DNA of 64,000 nt from an uncultured Pirellulales bacterium. Lineage in GTDB: Bacteria > Planctomycetota > Planctomycetia > Pirellulales > Thermoguttaceae. Below, piece after piece: positions 12,079 to 24,111 of the stretch. The position numbers and the translations under genes were made by a program. Under the pieces are notes generated by a model, which had not been told where the DNA came from, searched no databases, and worked only from the letters and a program-made list of their open reading frames with translations. How positions within the stretch are numbered: position 1 is the stretch's first letter; each line of letters begins with the position of its first letter. Location: the NCBI GenBank assembly GCA_938015445.1, contig CALLPE010000008.1, forward strand, positions 62,001 through 126,000, in the 5' to 3' direction.

Positions 12079-14253
12079 ATGAGGCTCCTGGCAGGCTGGT
12101 GTAACACTGTGATGCTGGCGGCAGTGTTGATCCACGCCGTAGCGTGCGCTTCCGAGCCAGGCAGGCCTCTTCGGGCGGCGGGCCATGCTTCTGGCTCGGC
12201 GGCAGCGAACAATTTCCCGGCTACTGCCGTGGCTGACACTGGCAGCGCAGGGAAGCAGTATTTCGCAATCGAGGTCGTAGACTCGCAGACCGGCCGCGGC
12301 GTGCCAATGGTCGAACTGGAAACCGTCAACGCCGTTCGCTACTACACCGACAGCAACGGCTTGGCGGCCTTCTACGAGCCGGGCCTGATGAACCAAAGGG
12401 TCTTTTTTCAGGTCCGCAGCCACGGATACCAGTTCCCCAAAGACGGCTTCGGGGCCGAGGGAACCACGCTTCATGTCGTGCCCGGCGGAAAAGCACAGCT
12501 CAAAGTGCATCGTGTGAACATCGCCGAGCGGCTGTACCGCGTAACCGGCGAAGGCATCTACCGCGACAGTGTGCTGTTGGGCCGCCCGACGCCCATCGCC
12601 CAACCGTTGCTCAACGGCCAAGTGATGGGACAAGACAGCGTGCTGACAGCCGTGTATCGCGGCAAGCTGTACTGGTTCTGGGGCGATACTCAGCAGCCGG
12701 CTCATCCGCTGGGAAACTTTCATGCATCAGGTGCGATGTCGGATTTGCCGGGCCGCGGCGGATTGGACCCCGAGCGCGGGGTCGAGCTGGAGTATTTCGT
12801 CGACCAGCAAGGCAAGTCGCGGGCGATGGCGCCGATGGCCGGGGAAGGCCCCACTTGGATCGAAGCCCTGGCCGTGCTGAGCGACGAAACCGGCCAAGAA
12901 CGGCTTTACGCGATCTACGTGAAAGTCCGTCCGGGGTCTTTACAAGCATATCGGCGCGGGATTGCCGTTTTCGATGACAAGCAGGGTCGTTTCCAGCACG
13001 TGGCCGACTGGCCGGCCCAGTTTCCCATCCAACCGGCCGGACATACCTTCAAACGCAGCGAAGATGGTGTGGAGTACTTGTACTTTGCCTTTCCGGTCCC
13101 GGTCGTTCGGGTGCGCGCCAACACGAGCGATTTCCGCCGTCCCGAGGCATACCAGGCTTACACCTGCCTTAAACCCGCAACAGCGCTGCCAGACCAAGAC
13201 GACGGCCACAACAGGTCCTCCCGGGACGGCCTAAAGCAGGCTGCCAGCCGTATCGACCGCTGCGACGACGGTCGGGTGCGCTGGGGCTGGAAGACCAACA
13301 CGGCGCCGCTCAGCCCGCAACAGCAAGCCGCGCTGGTCGATGCCGGCATACTCCAGCCGCACGAGGCGCTGCTGCACCTGCAAGACCCCGACAGCGGCAA
13401 ACCAGTGCTGGCCCATCGCGGCTCGGTCTATTGGAACGCGTACCGACAGCGGTGGACGATGATCTTCTGCGAACAGTTCGGCACTTCCGTGTTGGGCGAA
13501 ATCTGGTACGCCGAGGCCGACACGCCGCTAGGTCCCTGGGTGTATGCCCGCAAGATCGTCACCCACGATAAACAGAGTTTCTACAATCCCAAACAACATC
13601 CAGAGTTCGACAAGCACGCCGGTCGGATCATCTTTTTCGAGGGCACATATACGCACACTTTTTCGGGCAATCCGCAGCGCACGCCGCGGTATGATTACAA
13701 CCAGATGATGTACAAGCTCGACTTGGCCGACCAGCGCCTAGTGCTGCCCGTGGCAGTCTATCGTTTTGCTGGACGCGACGGCGCCGAAAGGCTAGAAACG
13801 GTAACCCGGATAGCAGGGACGAGAGGCGCAAAAGTGGCTTTTTTCGCCCTGGACCGGCCGCGGCCGGGTTGCGTGGCGGTCGTGCCCGACGGCAAAAATT
13901 CCGGCCAACTGCGAGTCGAGCTTGTCGCGGATTCAACAGTCCGCTCGTCCGGCGGGCCGCAAGTATCTTACAACCGGCCGCAAGTGTCGTCCGGCGCTGG
14001 CAGCACGGCAGCAGTGGAGCAAGCCCCGCAAGTTATCTTCTACGCCTTGCCAGCCGGGGAGGCCAATCCGCTTGCGAGCGCCCTGCCGCTGTATGAGTAT
14101 CGCAGCAAAGACGGCTCGCAGCGGGTGTATAGCACGCCGGAGGACGCTCCGCCAGGATACGTCCGCGCCGAAAAACCGTTGTGCCTGGTGTGGCGAAATC
14201 CGATCGGGTCGGGCGTGCTGCCGGACGCGGTGCGCGATTCATCGGCGGACTGA
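12079..14253 (+). CDS. Secreted beta-propeller-like protein (DUF4185/GH43-like), unknown substrate
   Basis: A 724-residue exported protein with a signal peptide at ~1-25 (GWCNTVMLAAVLIHAVACAS), possibly a lipoprotein. Residues ~60-150 look like a carboxypeptidase-regulatory-type beta sandwich (VVDSQTGRGVPMVELETVNA, TDSNGLAAFYEPGLM). Then come propeller-like blades: VYRGKLYWFWGDTQQP, LYAIYVKV, YLYFAFPVPVVRV, RGSVYWNAYRQRWTMIF and GEIWYAEADTPLGPWVYARKI. The last is the blade motif of GH43/DUF4185 proteins. The C-terminal ~170 residues have YRFAGRDGAER and LPLYEYRSKDGSQRVYSTPE, repeat-like motifs of unknown fold. A carbohydrate-related role is an inference. Confidence 0.75.
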   Translation: MRLLAGWCNTVMLAAVLIHAVACASEPGRPLRAAGHASGSAAANNFPATAVADTGSAGKQYFAIEVVDSQTGRGVPMVELETVNAVRYYTDSNGLAAFYEPGLMNQRVFFQVRSHGYQFPKDGFGAEGTTLHVVPGGKAQLKVHRVNIAERLYRVTGEGIYRDSVLLGRPTPIAQPLLNGQVMGQDSVLTAVYRGKLYWFWGDTQQPAHPLGNFHASGAMSDLPGRGGLDPERGVELEYFVDQQGKSRAMAPMAGEGPTWIEALAVLSDETGQERLYAIYVKVRPGSLQAYRRGIAVFDDKQGRFQHVADWPAQFPIQPAGHTFKRSEDGVEYLYFAFPVPVVRVRANTSDFRRPEAYQAYTCLKPATALPDQDDGHNRSSRDGLKQAASRIDRCDDGRVRWGWKTNTAPLSPQQQAALVDAGILQPHEALLHLQDPDSGKPVLAHRGSVYWNAYRQRWTMIFCEQFGTSVLGEIWYAEADTPLGPWVYARKIVTHDKQSFYNPKQHPEFDKHAGRIIFFEGTYTHTFSGNPQRTPRYDYNQMMYKLDLADQRLVLPVAVYRFAGRDGAERLETVTRIAGTRGAKVAFFALDRPRPGCVAVVPDGKNSGQLRVELVADSTVRSSGGPQVSYNRPQVSSGAGSTAAVEQAPQVIFYALPAGEANPLASALPLYEYRSKDGSQRVYSTPEDAPPGYVRAEKPLCLVWRNPIGSGVLPDAVRDSSAD

Positions 14254-17281: not shown

Positions 17282-18535
17282 ATGCCTCAGCAGTTAGGAG
17301 AGCTTACCTTCTTGCGCGAGCTTGCGCCGCGGTTTGCTATTCCAGTACCCGAGTTCCTGGAATGGCCCGCCGAACGCAAAGCCGTATCGGATTGTCTGGA
17401 CCGCTGGAAGACCGCGCTGGCCAAAGCGGACATTCTAGTAGGTGGCCGGGGAAAGGCGGGCTTGGTCGAACGGGTGGACTCCGCGGCCGATGCCATTCGG
17501 GCACTGAAGCGGCTGTCGGCCGCCGAGCTGAACGGACGCATGGCCCGTACCTCCTACCTGGTGCAGCACGTCCCCGCCAAGCACGAGGTTTATACGGCTA
17601 TCACCTACGATTCCCGTTGGCTCTCGCCGGCGATAACCTTATCGCTTAAAGGCGGGGTGGACGTGGAAACGATCGCCGAAAGCGACAAACGCACCTTCCC
17701 CGTAGACGTATATCAAGGTCTCGATGCCTACCAAGCCAGCGAGCTGTTGGAATCGCTGGGATGTCCGCGGCCGGTAATCAGTCCGTTGTCTCGGGCGCTG
17801 GTGAACTTGTGGGACATGTTCATCACCTCGGGGATGCGGATGTGCGAGGTCAACCCGTGGCGCATCACCCCCGATAACCGCCCGCTGGCCTGCGACTTCA
17901 AAGGCGTGCTGGACGAAGCCAACTTCAAGCACCGCAACATCGAGTTCGAGCTGCCCGAATACCCCGAAAGCGTTAGCGAGTTCCAACAAGAGATGGATCG
18001 CTGGAACGCGGCTTCGTATCAGGGGCAGGCGCACGTGAGCGATCTGGGGGGCAAGGGTGTGCTGCCGATACTGTTCGGGGGCGGGGCTTCGACGATCATC
18101 ATCGAGACTCTGCTTCAGTCGGGCGGAGACCCGATGTTCCTGTCCGACTTCGGCGGCAATCCACCCTACGACCGCATGCGCGGAACGGCCTCGATCTGCT
18201 TTCGGCACAAACTGGCCGATGCGGTGGTGCTGCTGATTCTGGGTGGCAAAGCGAACAATACCCGCATCGACGTGACCTTCCAGGCCATCGCCGACGCCCT
18301 GGCCGAGCACGCCCATCGTCGCAGCAGCGAATTGCCGGTGATCGTCGGCCGCGGTGGACCGCGGCTGGTACAAGGGCTGTTGGCCTTGCAGCGGTGTCTG
18401 GAGGAGTTGGGCTGGCCGTACACGATCTTCGGCCCCGATACGCCCATCACCATGGTGGCCCAGTATGCCGGCCGACTGTGCCAGTATCTGCGCAGCTCGA
18501 AAGAGGCGGAACCACAATCCCAGAAACAGCAATAA
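17282..18535 (+). CDS. aclB: ATP-citrate lyase beta-type subunit (ATP-grasp + citrate-binding domain)
   Basis: A 417-residue protein. The N-terminal half is a SucC-like ATP-grasp domain (ILVGGRGKAGLV, AITYDSRW, LSLKGGVDVETIAE, CEVNPWRIT, ACDFKGVLDE). The C-terminal half matches the ACL citrate-binding domain: LPILFGGGASTIIIETLLQ, LILGGKANNTRIDVTFQAIA, VIVGRGGPRLVQGLLAL and TIFGPDTPITMV. With the next gene it would form a two-subunit ATP-citrate lyase: citrate + ATP + CoA to acetyl-CoA + oxaloacetate + ADP + Pi. A related ATP-dependent citryl-CoA-type ligase is the alternative. The spacer to the partner gene is 33 bases. Confidence 0.8.
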   Translation: MPQQLGELTFLRELAPRFAIPVPEFLEWPAERKAVSDCLDRWKTALAKADILVGGRGKAGLVERVDSAADAIRALKRLSAAELNGRMARTSYLVQHVPAKHEVYTAITYDSRWLSPAITLSLKGGVDVETIAESDKRTFPVDVYQGLDAYQASELLESLGCPRPVISPLSRALVNLWDMFITSGMRMCEVNPWRITPDNRPLACDFKGVLDEANFKHRNIEFELPEYPESVSEFQQEMDRWNAASYQGQAHVSDLGGKGVLPILFGGGASTIIIETLLQSGGDPMFLSDFGGNPPYDRMRGTASICFRHKLADAVVLLILGGKANNTRIDVTFQAIADALAEHAHRRSSELPVIVGRGGPRLVQGLLALQRCLEELGWPYTIFGPDTPITMVAQYAGRLCQYLRSSKEAEPQSQKQQ

Positions 18536-18568
18536 CCGGAGCCAAGAGCACAACAGGAACACTCTGCC

Positions 18569-20641
18569 ATGCGCGCCACGAAGCTGACGGATATTTTGCG
18601 CCGGGGGGATCGGGTGGCGGTGTCCAACATCACCGGCCGCGAGGCCAGCAAAGTTACCGACATCAGCCAGCGGTACTGCGGGAATATTGTGGGCGGCTGG
18701 GCGCTGGGTAAAGGCGGCGACCAACTACCGGTTGGTCCAGATTCTTCCTTGCCGGTCTTCGCCGATTACGCCGACCTGCTCGAGCACCTGCCCCCGGAAC
18801 AGCATCCCAATAAGATCGTCATCTACTCGCCGCCGGAAGCCGTCTACGGCGAAGTAAAAAATGTGGTGAAGTTCTCGCGCGGCGCCGTGGAAACGATCTT
18901 CATCATCACCGAGAACGTCTCGATCGAAGTGTCGGCCAAGATTTACAAGCTGTGCCGGGCCGAGAATATCGACGTGCTGGGCTGCAACACGCTGGGAGTG
19001 ATAAATGCCACCGAGCACGTGCGCGTTGGCGCCGTGGGCGGCGACGCCCCCGAAGAAACCTTCCATCCCGGTAGCGCCACGATAATCTCCAACAGCGGAA
19101 ATATGGTCAACACCATGGCCTCGTACTTGTACGGGGCGGGCATCGGCACGCGCTTCGGCATTTCCACCGGCAAAGACCAGTTGATCCTCACGCCATTGCG
19201 CGATCTGCTGGAATTGGTGCTGGCCGACGAACTTACCCAGTTGCTCGTCCTGTACGTCGAACCAGGGGGACTGTACGAGCAGATCGCCATCCAATGGATG
19301 CGCGAGGTCAACTTCTCCAAACCGATGATCGTGTACGTGGGGGGCGAAGTGGCCGAACGCTGCAACGTATCGCTGGGCCATGCCGGGGCGGTGGTCGAAG
19401 GGGCAGGCACCAGCGCACGCGACAAGAAGGCCCTGTTCGACGACTACCTGCAAGCTCCGCCGTTTGCGCCGGGAATGACCTTCCCGCCAGATCGCCCGCC
19501 GCTACGCGGCCTCCGCCTGGAAGCCCTGCACGACCTGCCCGAAGCCGCCCGGGTGCTCTACGACATCCTGGGCCGCGAGCGCGACTACCGCCACTACCAC
19601 CCGCTGCGGCTCAATCCCTGGCTGAAGAACATGGGCCGGTTGGGTACGCGCTTGCCGCCGGCGCTGGTGTTGGGCGAAGGGGTGATCCCATCGCCCTACA
19701 AAGAGCAGATCGAAGAGTTCCACCGCACCCAGTTCGGCCGACTGCCTGCCCGCCGCGACATGCGCAACGCCAGCCACGCCTCGTCGAACGACGGAGCCAC
19801 GCCGCGGATTTACGGGCGCAGCGTGCTGCGGCTGATGGATACCCGCAGTTTCGCCTACTCGCTGATACTGGCCTGGACCGGTTATCCGCCCTCCAGGGAT
19901 TTCGAGCCGCAGTTGGTGGAAAAGACATTGGTGGCGGCGATGACCAACGGGCCGGGCACGATTTCGGCCCAAGCGGCCAAGCTATCGGCCTCGGCTGGCA
20001 ACAGTCCGCACGTGGCCATGATAGCCACGCTGGCGGCCATCGGCGAGGTTCACGGCGGCAATGGCAAGGAGGCCGTTTCGTTGATGGTCGATCGGTTCGC
20101 CAATTCCGAACTGACCAACCCTTACGATCCGGCCCGCCGCGAGCTGGTCGAGCAAAAGGCTCGCCAGGCGGCGACTGAAATACTGCGCCGCAAACGGGCC
20201 GCGGCCGAGCAGGATGTGCCGTTTCAGCGGGTACCGTGTCTGGGGCACCCGGTGTATCGGACCGAAGAGGTCAACTACGATCCGCGCGAACAAGTGATTG
20301 CCCGCTTTTTGGAACAGATCGGCGTGTATCACGCCTTCCTGGACTTTTACCACCGGTTGGCGTTTGCCATGCGTCAGGTGGGAGTGACGCGAAACGTGCT
20401 GGCCGTCAATGTCGATGCAGCAATAGCGTGCGTGTGGTTGGGAATATGTTGGCCGCTGTTGTGCGAGAAGAAACTTTCGGTCGAGCGGGCCAAGAACATC
20501 GCCGTGGCGGCCTTCGCCTTGGGCCGGGTGGCCGGGGGAGCCAGCGAATACTTCGATCATGCCGACTTCGGCGAACCGATGGATATGCGCATCCCGGTGG
20601 CGGAGTGCGTCGCGCTTACTCCCTACACCGAAGAAGCTTGA
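18569..20641 (+). CDS. aclA: ATP-citrate lyase alpha-type subunit (SucD + citrate-synthase-like domain)
   Basis: A 690-residue protein. Residues ~1-330 are a SucD-like CoA-binding/ligase domain, with the phospho-histidine loop SLGHAGAVVEGAG (His near 271) and IISNSGNMVNTMASYL. Residues ~400-680 are a citrate-synthase/citryl-CoA-lyase-like domain: GPGTISAQAAKLSASAGNSP, GEVHGGNGKEAV, LGHPVYR followed by YDPREQ, and VLAVNVDAAIACVW. This is the fused arrangement of AclA in Chlorobi-type ATP-citrate lyases. The reaction direction in the cell, and citrate against 2-methylcitrate as substrate, cannot be read from sequence. Confidence 0.8.
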   Translation: MRATKLTDILRRGDRVAVSNITGREASKVTDISQRYCGNIVGGWALGKGGDQLPVGPDSSLPVFADYADLLEHLPPEQHPNKIVIYSPPEAVYGEVKNVVKFSRGAVETIFIITENVSIEVSAKIYKLCRAENIDVLGCNTLGVINATEHVRVGAVGGDAPEETFHPGSATIISNSGNMVNTMASYLYGAGIGTRFGISTGKDQLILTPLRDLLELVLADELTQLLVLYVEPGGLYEQIAIQWMREVNFSKPMIVYVGGEVAERCNVSLGHAGAVVEGAGTSARDKKALFDDYLQAPPFAPGMTFPPDRPPLRGLRLEALHDLPEAARVLYDILGRERDYRHYHPLRLNPWLKNMGRLGTRLPPALVLGEGVIPSPYKEQIEEFHRTQFGRLPARRDMRNASHASSNDGATPRIYGRSVLRLMDTRSFAYSLILAWTGYPPSRDFEPQLVEKTLVAAMTNGPGTISAQAAKLSASAGNSPHVAMIATLAAIGEVHGGNGKEAVSLMVDRFANSELTNPYDPARRELVEQKARQAATEILRRKRAAAEQDVPFQRVPCLGHPVYRTEEVNYDPREQVIARFLEQIGVYHAFLDFYHRLAFAMRQVGVTRNVLAVNVDAAIACVWLGICWPLLCEKKLSVERAKNIAVAAFALGRVAGGASEYFDHADFGEPMDMRIPVAECVALTPYTEEA

Positions 20642-20742: not shown

Positions 20743-21909
20743 TCACACGACCGACCAATGGGGATCGGGCTTATCGAGGACGACCGGCGAGGCTCCGGCC
20801 TGAAGAGACGCTACCTGTTGCTCGGCTGCGCTGACGGCCGCCGCATCGGCGTGCGCTTCGATTACCAGATCGAAGCTGCGCGACTGGCCCGGCGCTAGCA
20901 ACGCCACTCGGCCGCGCTGCTGCTCGAACGGCTTGGGATTGGGGAAATTGATTCCCGGCTCCAAGCCAGTCACATATCCATCTGGTACCGCCTGCCGGTT
21001 CTTCCACAGGGTAAAGTAGGGCAACTGCTGCTTGTTGAACCGCACGGTAACGCCCTGCGTCCCGGTGGCATTGCGGAGCGTGGCCTGGGTACGTCCCTCG
21101 GTATCGGCCCGCAGGTCGAGGAAGAATACCGCCTCCGGTGCAGCGGGAGTTTCCGGGCCGTAGCAGTCCCAGTGCGGCAAAGTGCTAGCGGCCGTGGCGT
21201 CGCGGGGTGCGACCTTCGCCGCCGGCGCCACCACGCGCGCCCCCGGCTCCAACAGCGGCGCGCCAAAGTTGATGTGATAGAGCAGCTCCATGTCGCCCGG
21301 CTCGGCGGAGATGTTGGTCACCGTATCGCGGATGGCGAACCACGGCTGGCCGACTTTGGTGGAAACGACCGTCTCCAACCGCAATTTAGCGCCGAACAGG
21401 CGTGCTTCGTCGACCACGCCGCGAACGGATATATCGCCGCTGGTGTCGTCGATGGCCACGCTGACGTGATGGGCCGGGATGTTGGCAATCTTGCCGTGCA
21501 GCGGATAGCGTACCGTGCCGTTGGGGTTGAATACCGGCGCCCCGTTGCTCTCCAGCCCGCAGCGAACCACTAGTTCGTCGAACCCGTCCAGCCAACCGAT
21601 GCCGCTCGGTTCCCAAAGGTTGACGAACGCCGGATGCACTGGGCCGCGGACGGGCGAATCCCATTTCAATTGCAGCCCGCCGAGACTTGCCCGCCAGATG
21701 CCCATTCCGCGCGTGGGCACGACGACCAGCCGCAGCAAGCCGTTGTGCACTTCGATCACGTCTACCCCTTGCCGCAGCCCGCCGCGCAAGGTGCGTTTTA
21801 CCACCGCGTAGCCTGCCGCCTTTCCGCCCAATTGATCGCAGCTCAGGCTGATCTGCTCGACGTAGATTTCTTGCTGCACGTCGGTAAGAACCCAGGTTCG
21901 TGCGGCCAT
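20743..21909 (-). CDS. DUF4432 galactose-mutarotase-like protein
   Basis: A 388-residue protein. ATG 21909 is supported by AAGGAG about 8 bases upstream; an in-frame extension to 21963 has no such site. The sequence has the beta-supersandwich pattern of aldose-1-epimerase-like DUF4432 proteins: LRLVVVPTRGMGIWRASLGG, WDSPVRGPVHPAFVNLWEPSG, LVVRCGLESNGAPVF, LHGKIANIPAH, and PYFTLWKNRQAV near the C-terminus. It probably binds or converts a sugar or sugar acid in the cytoplasm. It is convergent with the acl operon and stands alone. Confidence 0.85.
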   Translation of the reverse strand: MAARTWVLTDVQQEIYVEQISLSCDQLGGKAAGYAVVKRTLRGGLRQGVDVIEVHNGLLRLVVVPTRGMGIWRASLGGLQLKWDSPVRGPVHPAFVNLWEPSGIGWLDGFDELVVRCGLESNGAPVFNPNGTVRYPLHGKIANIPAHHVSVAIDDTSGDISVRGVVDEARLFGAKLRLETVVSTKVGQPWFAIRDTVTNISAEPGDMELLYHINFGAPLLEPGARVVAPAAKVAPRDATAASTLPHWDCYGPETPAAPEAVFFLDLRADTEGRTQATLRNATGTQGVTVRFNKQQLPYFTLWKNRQAVPDGYVTGLEPGINFPNPKPFEQQRGRVALLAPGQSRSFDLVIEAHADAAAVSAAEQQVASLQAGASPVVLDKPDPHWSVV

Positions 21910-22065
21910 TGTGGCATCTCCTTGTGTGAGGACGATCTGAATTAGAGCTTCTAACAAAACCACCTATTCTGGCACCGTGTCGCCGGCACATCGGCTAGTC
22001 AAGGCTTTTTGATGGTTCTGTTTTGTTACAGCCTCTTACCAAGCTGTATGGCTATCGTGGAAAGC

Positions 22066-24111
22066 TCACTGCCGCAATTGGGCACCGTGACGGGCATTGC
22101 AAGCGGCGACGATCTGCTCGCGCAGTTGGTCGGCCTGTTGGTTGGTCAGTGTTCCTTCGGCCCACCGGAGCACAATGCTCAGCAGCAGGCTCTTCTTGCC
22201 TTCGCCGAGTTTGCTGGGATCGCGGTAGGTGTCGCGGTATTCTAGCCGCTCCAGATACTGTCCGCACGTCTGGCGGACCGTGACCGCCACGTCGGCCCAA
22301 CGCACCTGCTCGTCGACCACCAAATTCAAATCGCGCGCCACAGCGGGATATGGCGATAGCGGTGTGTAAGTGGGCAGCAAATTGGCGTCGCGCAACAGCG
22401 GTTCCAGGCGGACTTCGGCGATACTGGTGCGGCCGCGAAGCTTGAACCGCTCGGCGCCTTCGGCAGTAATCGCGCCGATGTACGCCACCGGCTGGCCGCG
22501 GTACGTCATCGAGCACGATTGCAACGGGTCCAACAGCGGCACCGTGCAGGTTTCGGCGTATGCCGTCTCGGGCAAGCGCGACTCTGCCAGCATTGCTTCC
22601 ACTACGCCTTTCAGCGCCCAAAAATCCCGACCGCTCACTACCGCCAGCATCAGTTCTTCGCGCGGTAGGCCTACCCCTTGCGGCAAATAGACATGGGCGA
22701 TCTCGTACAAATCGGCTTCGGCGTTGCCCAGCGATTGGTTGAACTGGCGCGTCTGCAACAGGCTGGGAATCAAACTGCGGCGCAATACCTGACAGCCGCG
22801 CAACACTGGCAACAGCGTGCGCAGCGGCGGTTCGTCGCTCCACGGGCTGAACGCGGCCGAGCTGGCCTCGTCGATGATGCTTACGGTTATCGCTTCGTCG
22901 ATCCCTGCCGCCGCCAGCACCTGCCGCAGCTTGCCTAGCACGCGGTCTTGGCGAGTGCGGGCCGAAGGGGCGATAGGTATGGGCACATCGTCGGGAATCT
23001 TGTCGTAGCCGTGGATGCGCGCCACTTCTTCGACAAGGTCGATCTCTCGCTGCAAATCGCGCCGCCAACTGGGAGCGATCACCGTGACGGACTGCCCGCC
23101 CTTCTCCGCCACTGGCGAGGCTGTTAGTTCCGCCGGCTGCTCCTGACAACCCAAGGCCAGCAGTATCTGGCGGACTACCTGGGGCTCCACGTCGATCCCC
23201 AGAATTCGCTTGAGCTGACTGAACCGCAAAGTGATCGGTTTTCGTTCGGGCAGAGCTTCTATCACATCGACTGCCCCGGCCGCCAGTTCCCCGCCGGCGA
23301 TCTCCAGGATCAGTTCTGCGCAGCGGCGGCTGGCCCAGTCGATGCCTTCCGGGTCCACGCCGCGCTCGAAGCGGTAGGACGAATCGCTTTGCAGTCCCAG
23401 TTTGCGGCTGGTGCTGCGGATGGAAAGCGGGTCGAAACCTGCCGATTCAATGAGCACGTCGCGGGTAGAAGGTGAGATTTCTGTGGCCGCTCCGCCCATC
23501 ACGCCGGCGATCGCCACCGGGTCGGTTGCGTCGGCGATGACGCACATCTGCTCGTCAAGCTCGTAGAGTTTATGGTCGATTGCTTCGATCGTCTCGCCTG
23601 GCCGTGCGCGGCGAACGATGATCGTCGCTCCTTTCAGCCTGCCGTAATCGAAAGTGTGCAGCGGCTGTCCGCACTCCATCAGCACGTAGTTGGAAATATC
23701 GACCACGTTGTTGACCGGGGTCAGCCCCAGCGTTTCCAGCCGACGCACGAGCCACTGCGGGCTGGGGCCGACCTTTACTCCGCGTACAACCCGGGCGGAA
23801 TATCGCCAGCAGAGGTCCGGGCAGTCGATGCGAACCTTGATCAGCGACTCGACGGGCGTGCGGCCTTCCTTGGGCCGGGCCGGCGGCAAACGCAACGGTA
23901 CACCGAACACCGCAGCCGCCTCCCGCGCTATGCCTAGATGACACAGGCAGTCGGGCCGGTTGCTGGTGATCTCCAATTCGATGGCCAGGTCGTCGCCCAC
24001 TGACCTGCTGCCCTCGTGATTCAGCCCAGCCATCGTCAGGCGGCGCGCAACTTCCTCTGGGGATACATCCAGCGCGACGTAATCTTGCAGCCACTGCCAG
24101 GAAACGATCAT
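22066..24111 (-). CDS. pheT: Phenylalanine--tRNA ligase beta subunit, short form
   Basis: A 681-residue protein, against roughly 790-800 in most bacteria. It starts IVSWQWLQDYVALDVSPEEVA and passes directly from GLNHEGSRSVGD to LAIELEITSNRPDCLCHLGIAREAA, so the EMAP-II-like tRNA-binding domain normally inserted there is missing. The B3/B4 editing region (YVLMECGQPLHTFDYGRL), B5, the catalytic-like core and the C-terminal anticodon-binding FDX-ACB domain (LSPYPAVARDLNLVVDEQVRW, ending AEGTLTNQQADQL) are present. With PheS it forms the (alpha-beta)2 enzyme charging tRNA-Phe. It is separated from pheS by 462 bases, unusually far. Confidence 0.95.
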   Translation of the reverse strand: MIVSWQWLQDYVALDVSPEEVARRLTMAGLNHEGSRSVGDDLAIELEITSNRPDCLCHLGIAREAAAVFGVPLRLPPARPKEGRTPVESLIKVRIDCPDLCWRYSARVVRGVKVGPSPQWLVRRLETLGLTPVNNVVDISNYVLMECGQPLHTFDYGRLKGATIIVRRARPGETIEAIDHKLYELDEQMCVIADATDPVAIAGVMGGAATEISPSTRDVLIESAGFDPLSIRSTSRKLGLQSDSSYRFERGVDPEGIDWASRRCAELILEIAGGELAAGAVDVIEALPERKPITLRFSQLKRILGIDVEPQVVRQILLALGCQEQPAELTASPVAEKGGQSVTVIAPSWRRDLQREIDLVEEVARIHGYDKIPDDVPIPIAPSARTRQDRVLGKLRQVLAAAGIDEAITVSIIDEASSAAFSPWSDEPPLRTLLPVLRGCQVLRRSLIPSLLQTRQFNQSLGNAEADLYEIAHVYLPQGVGLPREELMLAVVSGRDFWALKGVVEAMLAESRLPETAYAETCTVPLLDPLQSCSMTYRGQPVAYIGAITAEGAERFKLRGRTSIAEVRLEPLLRDANLLPTYTPLSPYPAVARDLNLVVDEQVRWADVAVTVRQTCGQYLERLEYRDTYRDPSKLGEGKKSLLLSIVLRWAEGTLTNQQADQLREQIVAACNARHGAQLRQ

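Follow-up and report, generated by a model that had tools for sequence, protein, structure and literature searches.

Genes of the ATP-citrate lyase (ACL) type are usually taken as a sign of autotrophy through the reductive tricarboxylic acid (TCA) cycle. The excerpts of Thiel et al. 2017 (PMC5459899) consulted here describe genes for citryl-CoA synthetase (Ccs) and citryl-CoA lyase (Ccl) in the planctomycete OTU-14 that are intermediate between type II ACL and Ccs-Ccl; ccsB and ccl are fused in one gene. They also mention a fused 'aclA' in Planctomycetes bacterium DG20 and hypothetical-protein relatives at 52-54% identity in Spirochaetes, Phycisphaerae and Planctomycetes. In the literature searched, no biochemical study of a Ccs-Ccl fusion was found, and the 2017 metagenome paper describes the fusion from sequence. 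Here we analyzed a 64,000-nucleotide stretch of DNA from an uncultured Pirellulales bacterium (contig CALLPE010000008.1, positions 62,001 to 126,000; hereafter the window). Two neighbouring genes of the window, called LIG and FUS, very probably encode a rare, little-studied enzyme type that is ACL-like but on a separate branch. Going by the excerpted description rather than by sequence comparison, the fusion of Thiel et al. 2017 very probably belongs to the LIG/FUS family. Since the fusion itself was thus described previously, what is new here is its context, its distribution and the residue findings.

We consider it probable that LIG and FUS together form an ATP/ADP-linked citrate enzyme with two subunits, of a type in which citryl-CoA synthetase is fused to citryl-CoA lyase. 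This is the best reading because of the architecture, the pocket motifs, the affinity to Ccs and the linkage of aconitase and isocitrate dehydrogenase (IDH) genes to some relatives. In the proposed mechanism, LIG and the N-terminal half of FUS would act together: His271 of FUS would be phosphorylated by ATP, and the phosphate would then be passed to citrate held by LIG, yielding citryl-CoA. The net reaction would be citrate + ATP + CoA <=> acetyl-CoA + oxaloacetate + ADP + Pi. The substrate, the activity despite an Asn at FUS position 460 and the direction are what we infer from these observations.

The gene pair and its probable affinity to citryl-CoA synthetase

LIG (17282-18535, + strand, 417 aa) and FUS (18569-20641, + strand, 690 aa) are separated by 33 bases. 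Both open reading frames had been claimed in an earlier note on the window, and both are present at these positions and lengths. From its reading frame, Pfam matches, alignment, tree and motifs, LIG is a SucC-like ATP-grasp subunit with a citrate-binding domain, resembling the Ccs large subunit (ATP-grasp_2, 9.4e-24; Citrate_bind PF16114, 5.1e-14, 52.7 bits versus a cut-off of 26.8). The reading frame, Pfam, a structural model and alignment characterized FUS as a fusion of two domains, the first SucD-like (CoA-binding/phospho-His) and the second resembling citryl-CoA lyase and citrate synthase (Citrate_synt PF00285, 6.2e-14; Succ_CoA_lig, 7.1e-10; Ligase_CoA, 2e-4, under the cut-off). The architecture that the note had proposed, SucC plus citrate-binding followed by SucD plus citrate-synthase-like, was thereby borne out, with PF16114 over its cut-off. 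Neither LIG nor FUS reached an NCBIfam cut-off, and the top models, succinyl-CoA synthetase (SCS) and citryl-CoA lyase, were far under threshold. Identity as SCS was rejected: the NCBIfam SCS models gave 104 bits against 370 and 121 against 336, and the pocket motifs are not of SCS type.

Full-length relatives with 53-56% identity were found in four other genomes among the 296 of the order (G126, G173, G064 and G250), which belong to the same family but to other genera. A profile built from these four copies and the window copy was used to search genome contigs, and FUS relatives were detected at 60 loci in other genomes. Their best-segment identity was 50-58% in all but one, a short edge match at L093 (76% over 45 residues). 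The family alignment has 61 rows (60 loci and the window), in which rows without the stated residue are gaps, and 121 of its FUS columns are invariant. The gene pair is therefore not a product of chance.

The nearest solved relative of both proteins is the Hydrogenobacter citryl-CoA synthetase 6hxq (LIG, 1.8e-36; FUS N-terminal half, 3.1e-30), and the FUS lyase domain is nearest to the citryl-CoA lyase 6hxp (3.4e-12). The AlphaFold2 model of FUS had a mean pLDDT of 82 and a pTM of 0.53, at which domain orientation is unreliable; the small subunit of Hydrogenobacter citryl-CoA synthetase was its top single chain by Z (37.9, with an rmsd of 3.1 and 328 residues). The family LIG profile scored 185-198 bits with Ccs, 133-139 with 'type B', an independent fusion in planctomycetes, 71-107 with ACL and 44-105 with SCS and other unassigned SucC-like proteins. 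In the trees, the family grouped with Ccs both for LIG (SH-aLRT 96, with long branches) and for the FUS N-terminal half (SH-aLRT 86), while the placement of the lyase domain was weak. Constraining the family and ACL into one clade cost 12.7 log units and was not formally rejected (p-AU 0.2). These comparisons favour an affinity to Ccs over ACL without proving it. In the phylogeny suggested in the note, the best tree placed LIG with Ccs, an ACL clade still having p-AU 0.2, and the note's Chlorobi-type ACL label is weak on this tree and on the Asn at the position of human ACLY His900. Its other option, a divergent citryl-CoA-type ligase, is the best of those it offered.

In its ligase pocket, LIG carries GGGAS, GGxANNT and GRGGP, which are motifs of ACL and Ccs rather than of SCS. 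ANNT resembles the Ccs motif (ANNT in 6hxq, ASNT in Nitrospirota) more than that of ACL (ANFT). The two FUS motifs named in the note were both located: the phospho-His loop GHAGA at residues 270-274 (19376-19390, +) and GHPVYR...DPRE at residues 559-574 (20243-20290, +), in which His560 corresponds by alignment to the second His of the lyase. The phospho-His, His271, occurs in 60 of the 61 alignment rows, the other being a gap. Between the two motifs lies TNGPGTISAQ (residues 459-468; 19943-19972, +), in which Asn460 takes, by alignment, the place of His in the 'DH' motif of ACL, Ccl and citrate synthase. Asp616 of NVDAA (20414-20416, +) aligned with human ACLY Asp1026.

Genomic neighbours, host metabolism and reaction direction

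Clustering of flanking open reading frames revealed aconitase-family genes at 8 loci and two types of IDH-family genes at 7 loci each. Altogether, 15 of the 61 loci (60 plus the window) have an aconitase- or IDH-family gene in the flanks, and many of the remaining loci lie on short contigs. The gene order is aconitase-IDH-LIG-FUS in a Spirochaetales metagenome-assembled genome (MAG; L036), LIG-FUS-aconitase-IDH in a Syntrophaceae MAG (L049) and LIG-FUS-IDH in two Lentisphaerae (L082, L091). NCBIfam equivalog cut-offs were passed by the aconitases of L036, L037 and L049 and by the NADP-IDHs of L034, L036, L046, L049, L069 and L091. The linked aconitase shares 57-58% identity with the one encoded within a Nitrospirota Ccs-Ccl operon. 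Because aconitase and NADP-isocitrate dehydrogenase adjoin some homologues, citrate is the likely substrate. At L090, the neighbour is a pyrroline-5-carboxylate (P5C) dehydrogenase over its NCBIfam equivalog cut-off. Conserved antisense reading frames at up to 55 loci were taken as coding-strand shadows, and a GntR flank cluster was dropped as a count, as it contained genuine regulators alongside reading frames that run antisense to IDH, and its L036 member was under curated cut-offs.

The window genome is 87.86% complete and encodes citrate synthase and AcnA aconitase over cut-offs. At this completeness, neither isocitrate dehydrogenase, including the monomeric form, nor SCS besides LIG was found in it; its sole PF00180 protein is a 3-isopropylmalate dehydrogenase. 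The best match to the 2-oxoacid:ferredoxin oxidoreductase alpha subunit (TIGR03710) had an E value of only 4e-4, so the search for 2-oxoglutarate:ferredoxin oxidoreductase (OGOR) that the note had suggested turned out negative, and the best match to the E1 component of 2-oxoglutarate dehydrogenase reached 23.9 bits versus a cut-off of 770. A reductive TCA cycle, which the note had implied, is not supported in the window genome. We also tabulated host genes for 50 of the 60 loci, using MAGs of unstated completeness. SCS above 140 bits was present in 14 of these hosts, TIGR03710 over the cut-off in 11 and both in 7; many hosts have split or short 2-oxoacid oxidoreductases under the cut-off, so that the absence of OGOR is firm for the window genome only. 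Because most hosts, as far as tested, are without the other parts of the reductive TCA cycle, automatic annotation of these ACL-like domains would mislead.

The net reaction is near equilibrium, and its direction may therefore vary by host. Cleavage is slightly more likely in the window host, because citrate synthase is also present there. In the hosts without the synthase that carry LIG-FUS beside aconitase and IDH, this setting would favour citrate formation with gain of ATP. A possible but clearly less probable view is that the same enzyme works mainly toward citrate, conserving ATP and feeding aconitase and IDH so that glutamate can be made in energy-limited anaerobes. Canonical citrate synthase above 100 bits was missing from 15 of the 50 hosts, all 15 of which have PF00330 and PF00180 members, some perhaps leucine-pathway enzymes. 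In three of these (L037, L049, L057), the pair lies beside aconitase and IDH, and the synthase was also missing from all five planctomycete MAGs of a group picked after the table had been seen (L038, L041, L044, L088, L092). The ACL of Desulfobacter postgatei, which Moller reportedly described in 1987 as working in the ATP-forming direction, is offered as a precedent. Against this stand the canonical synthase in 35 of the 50 hosts and in the window genome and the lack of a detectable IDH in the latter, and the absences could reflect MAG incompleteness or a Re-citrate synthase, which was not searched for. A general replacement of citrate synthase by the pair was not accepted, on the same 35 hosts. 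Somewhat more tentatively still, a broad set of anaerobic bacteria may form citrate and ATP with the fused citryl-CoA synthetase-lyase, which would replace or supplement the classical citrate synthase and has Asn for the usual active-site His.

Asn460 and the remaining alternatives

Several points weigh against a citryl-CoA synthetase-lyase acting on citrate. An Asn stands where the aligned catalytic His is expected, at the position of human ACLY His900; long branches leave the placement between Ccs and ACL unsure; no aconitase or IDH gene was found beside the pair in the window; and with no IDH found in the window genome, citrate has no evident route to 2-oxoglutarate there.

Asn460 occurs in 59 of the 61 rows, that is, in every row with a letter, the other two being gaps. 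His495 and His560 occur in 58 rows each and Asp616 in 57, and the remainder are again gaps. We take Asn460, His560 and Asp616 to be equivalent to human ACLY His900, His975 and Asp1026. The position of Asn460 is His in ACL, some Ccl and citrate synthase; that of His495 is His in citrate synthase and Ccl, and ACL lacks this His. H900 and D1026 of ACLY are mentioned in the excerpts of PMC10115795 consulted. Of the lyase residues, whose alignment the note had raised, His560 and Asp616 are present, as is the phospho-His loop GHAGA, and the ACLY His900 position is Asn. Six Nitrospirota Ccl of Ccs operons were compared at this position, and Asn was found in L134, L135 and L140 and His in L136, L138 and L143. 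In the Asn-bearing Ccl, Asn replaces the His of an IDHG motif that close relatives retain. Because Ccl of Ccs operons have either residue there, Asn460 alone does not indicate a dead lyase, and a loss of lyase function through Asn460 was not accepted.

An invariant Asn460 within TNGPG might instead mark a change of substrate to another acid, such as 2-methylcitrate or homocitrate. One of the 15 loci with linked genes, L035, has leuC-like and homoisocitrate-dehydrogenase-like neighbours, the latter scanned and found under cut-offs. This alternative is unlikely, as the linked aconitases and IDHs elsewhere pass citrate-cycle equivalog cut-offs and the same Asn occurs in three of the six Ccl. Less likely again is that FUS only forms citryl-CoA and that its lyase-like domain has no activity or plays a structural role. 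The loss of the His900 equivalent would fit, as would work on human ACLY, for which the consulted excerpts of PMC10115795 argue that cleavage may be carried out by the ASH (ligase) part and that the role of the CSH domain is allosteric; His495, His560 and Asp616 are nevertheless invariant, and the whole lyase domain is strongly conserved. A canonical two-subunit ACL serving reductive TCA flux is the least probable, since its matching domain architecture, full-length Foldseek match of the FUS model to Chlorobium 6hxj_D (1.6e-26; domain orientation unsure at this pTM), PF16114 score and ACL clade at p-AU 0.2 are opposed by best trees with Ccs, the Asn at the His900 position, and SCS, OGOR and IDH not found in the window genome; the tree and the missing SCS and OGOR ruled it out as the principal interpretation. 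Of the note's overall reading, the architecture, the citrate idea and ATP-linked cleavage or formation of citrate via citryl-CoA stood, and the Chlorobi ACL label and the reductive TCA cycle fell away.

Distribution, inheritance and comparison with known systems

Among the 58 non-window tree rows, 55 have a phylum label, taken from submitters' titles, and these represent 11 phyla, led by Planctomycetota (20), Spirochaetota (9), Verrucomicrobiota (6) and Kiritimatiellota (5). Nearly all host genomes are MAGs by title. The PF16114 cut-off was passed in 11 of 392 Planctomycetota genomes; two of these are ACL-like in strength (166-168 bits) and have ADHGP in their FUS-like partner, and the others scored 48-63 bits, within the LIG/FUS family range. 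Vertical inheritance, posed as a clade that unites the window copy with eight others (L047 and seven planctomycete copies, of which six are from Pirellulales), was rejected (p-AU 6e-5). The separation of the window copy from those of its own family suggests lateral transfer or separate acquisition, or hidden paralogy.

Further arrangements were observed in planctomycetes. A more divergent 909-aa FUS relative with LTNGPGTLSAKGAK and its own LIG lies at L167 (3674-7727), and a closed 4.25-Mb genome (G825) carries a LIG/FUS pair at L166 (8096-11412), near genes that, from the sequence start, may encode a glycyl-radical enzyme and an activase for it. L029 (5790-9344), L030 (7534-10938), L031 and L032, from two genera (g9, g10) of the window's family, have another, independent fusion of SucD-like and citryl-CoA-lyase-like parts (716-745 aa), accompanied by a SucC-like partner; the DH motif (CVDHTPATPS) is retained, and ANFT is present. 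Adjacent separate SucC, SucD and citryl-CoA-lyase genes occur in other planctomycete families at L033 (9222-12082), where the lyase is over two PRK06224 citryl-CoA lyase cut-offs, and at L013. Downstream of the pair in the window lie a DUF4432 protein by Pfam (20743-21963, - strand) and, recognized by eye, a presumed phenylalanyl-tRNA synthetase beta-like gene (22066-24111, - strand), both with no visible metabolic link; a 724-aa protein at 12079-14253 (+ strand) had no Pfam match at 1e-3.

Compared with known systems, ACL AclBA (Chlorobium 6hxj; Nitrospirota L124-L133) likewise has two subunits, SucC plus citrate-binding and SucD plus citrate-synthase-like, with the phospho-His, AN-x-T and RGGP. 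It differs from LIG/FUS in having ANFT and ADHGP, in having no His opposite His495 of FUS and in forming a separate group. The tubeworm symbiont 'type II ACL' is likewise a divergent bacterial ACL-like enzyme in the excerpts of PMC3522073 consulted, and seven-residue peptides from its published primers had no match with <2 mismatches in the sets searched. The fusion in the excerpts of Thiel et al. 2017 is read there as a set of key reductive TCA genes, whereas here the partners of that cycle are missing from the window genome and, as far as tested, from most hosts; the LIG/FUS pair matches it in the ccsB-ccl fusion, the separate large subunit and the taxon range. The Ccs and Ccl systems (Hydrogenobacter 6hxq/6hxp; Nitrospirota operons among L134-L140 and L143) share the N-T ligase motif and are the top sequence match and the tree neighbour. 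As in the FUS family, some Nitrospirota operons have the same aconitase type and some Ccl have the Asn variant. In those systems, Ccl and the Ccs small subunit are encoded separately, whereas FUS has both fused with a linker. The LIG/FUS family would provide a case in which citrate synthesis that conserves energy can be tested and, for the evolution of citrate enzymes, a natural and widespread intermediate between separate Ccs/Ccl and ACL.

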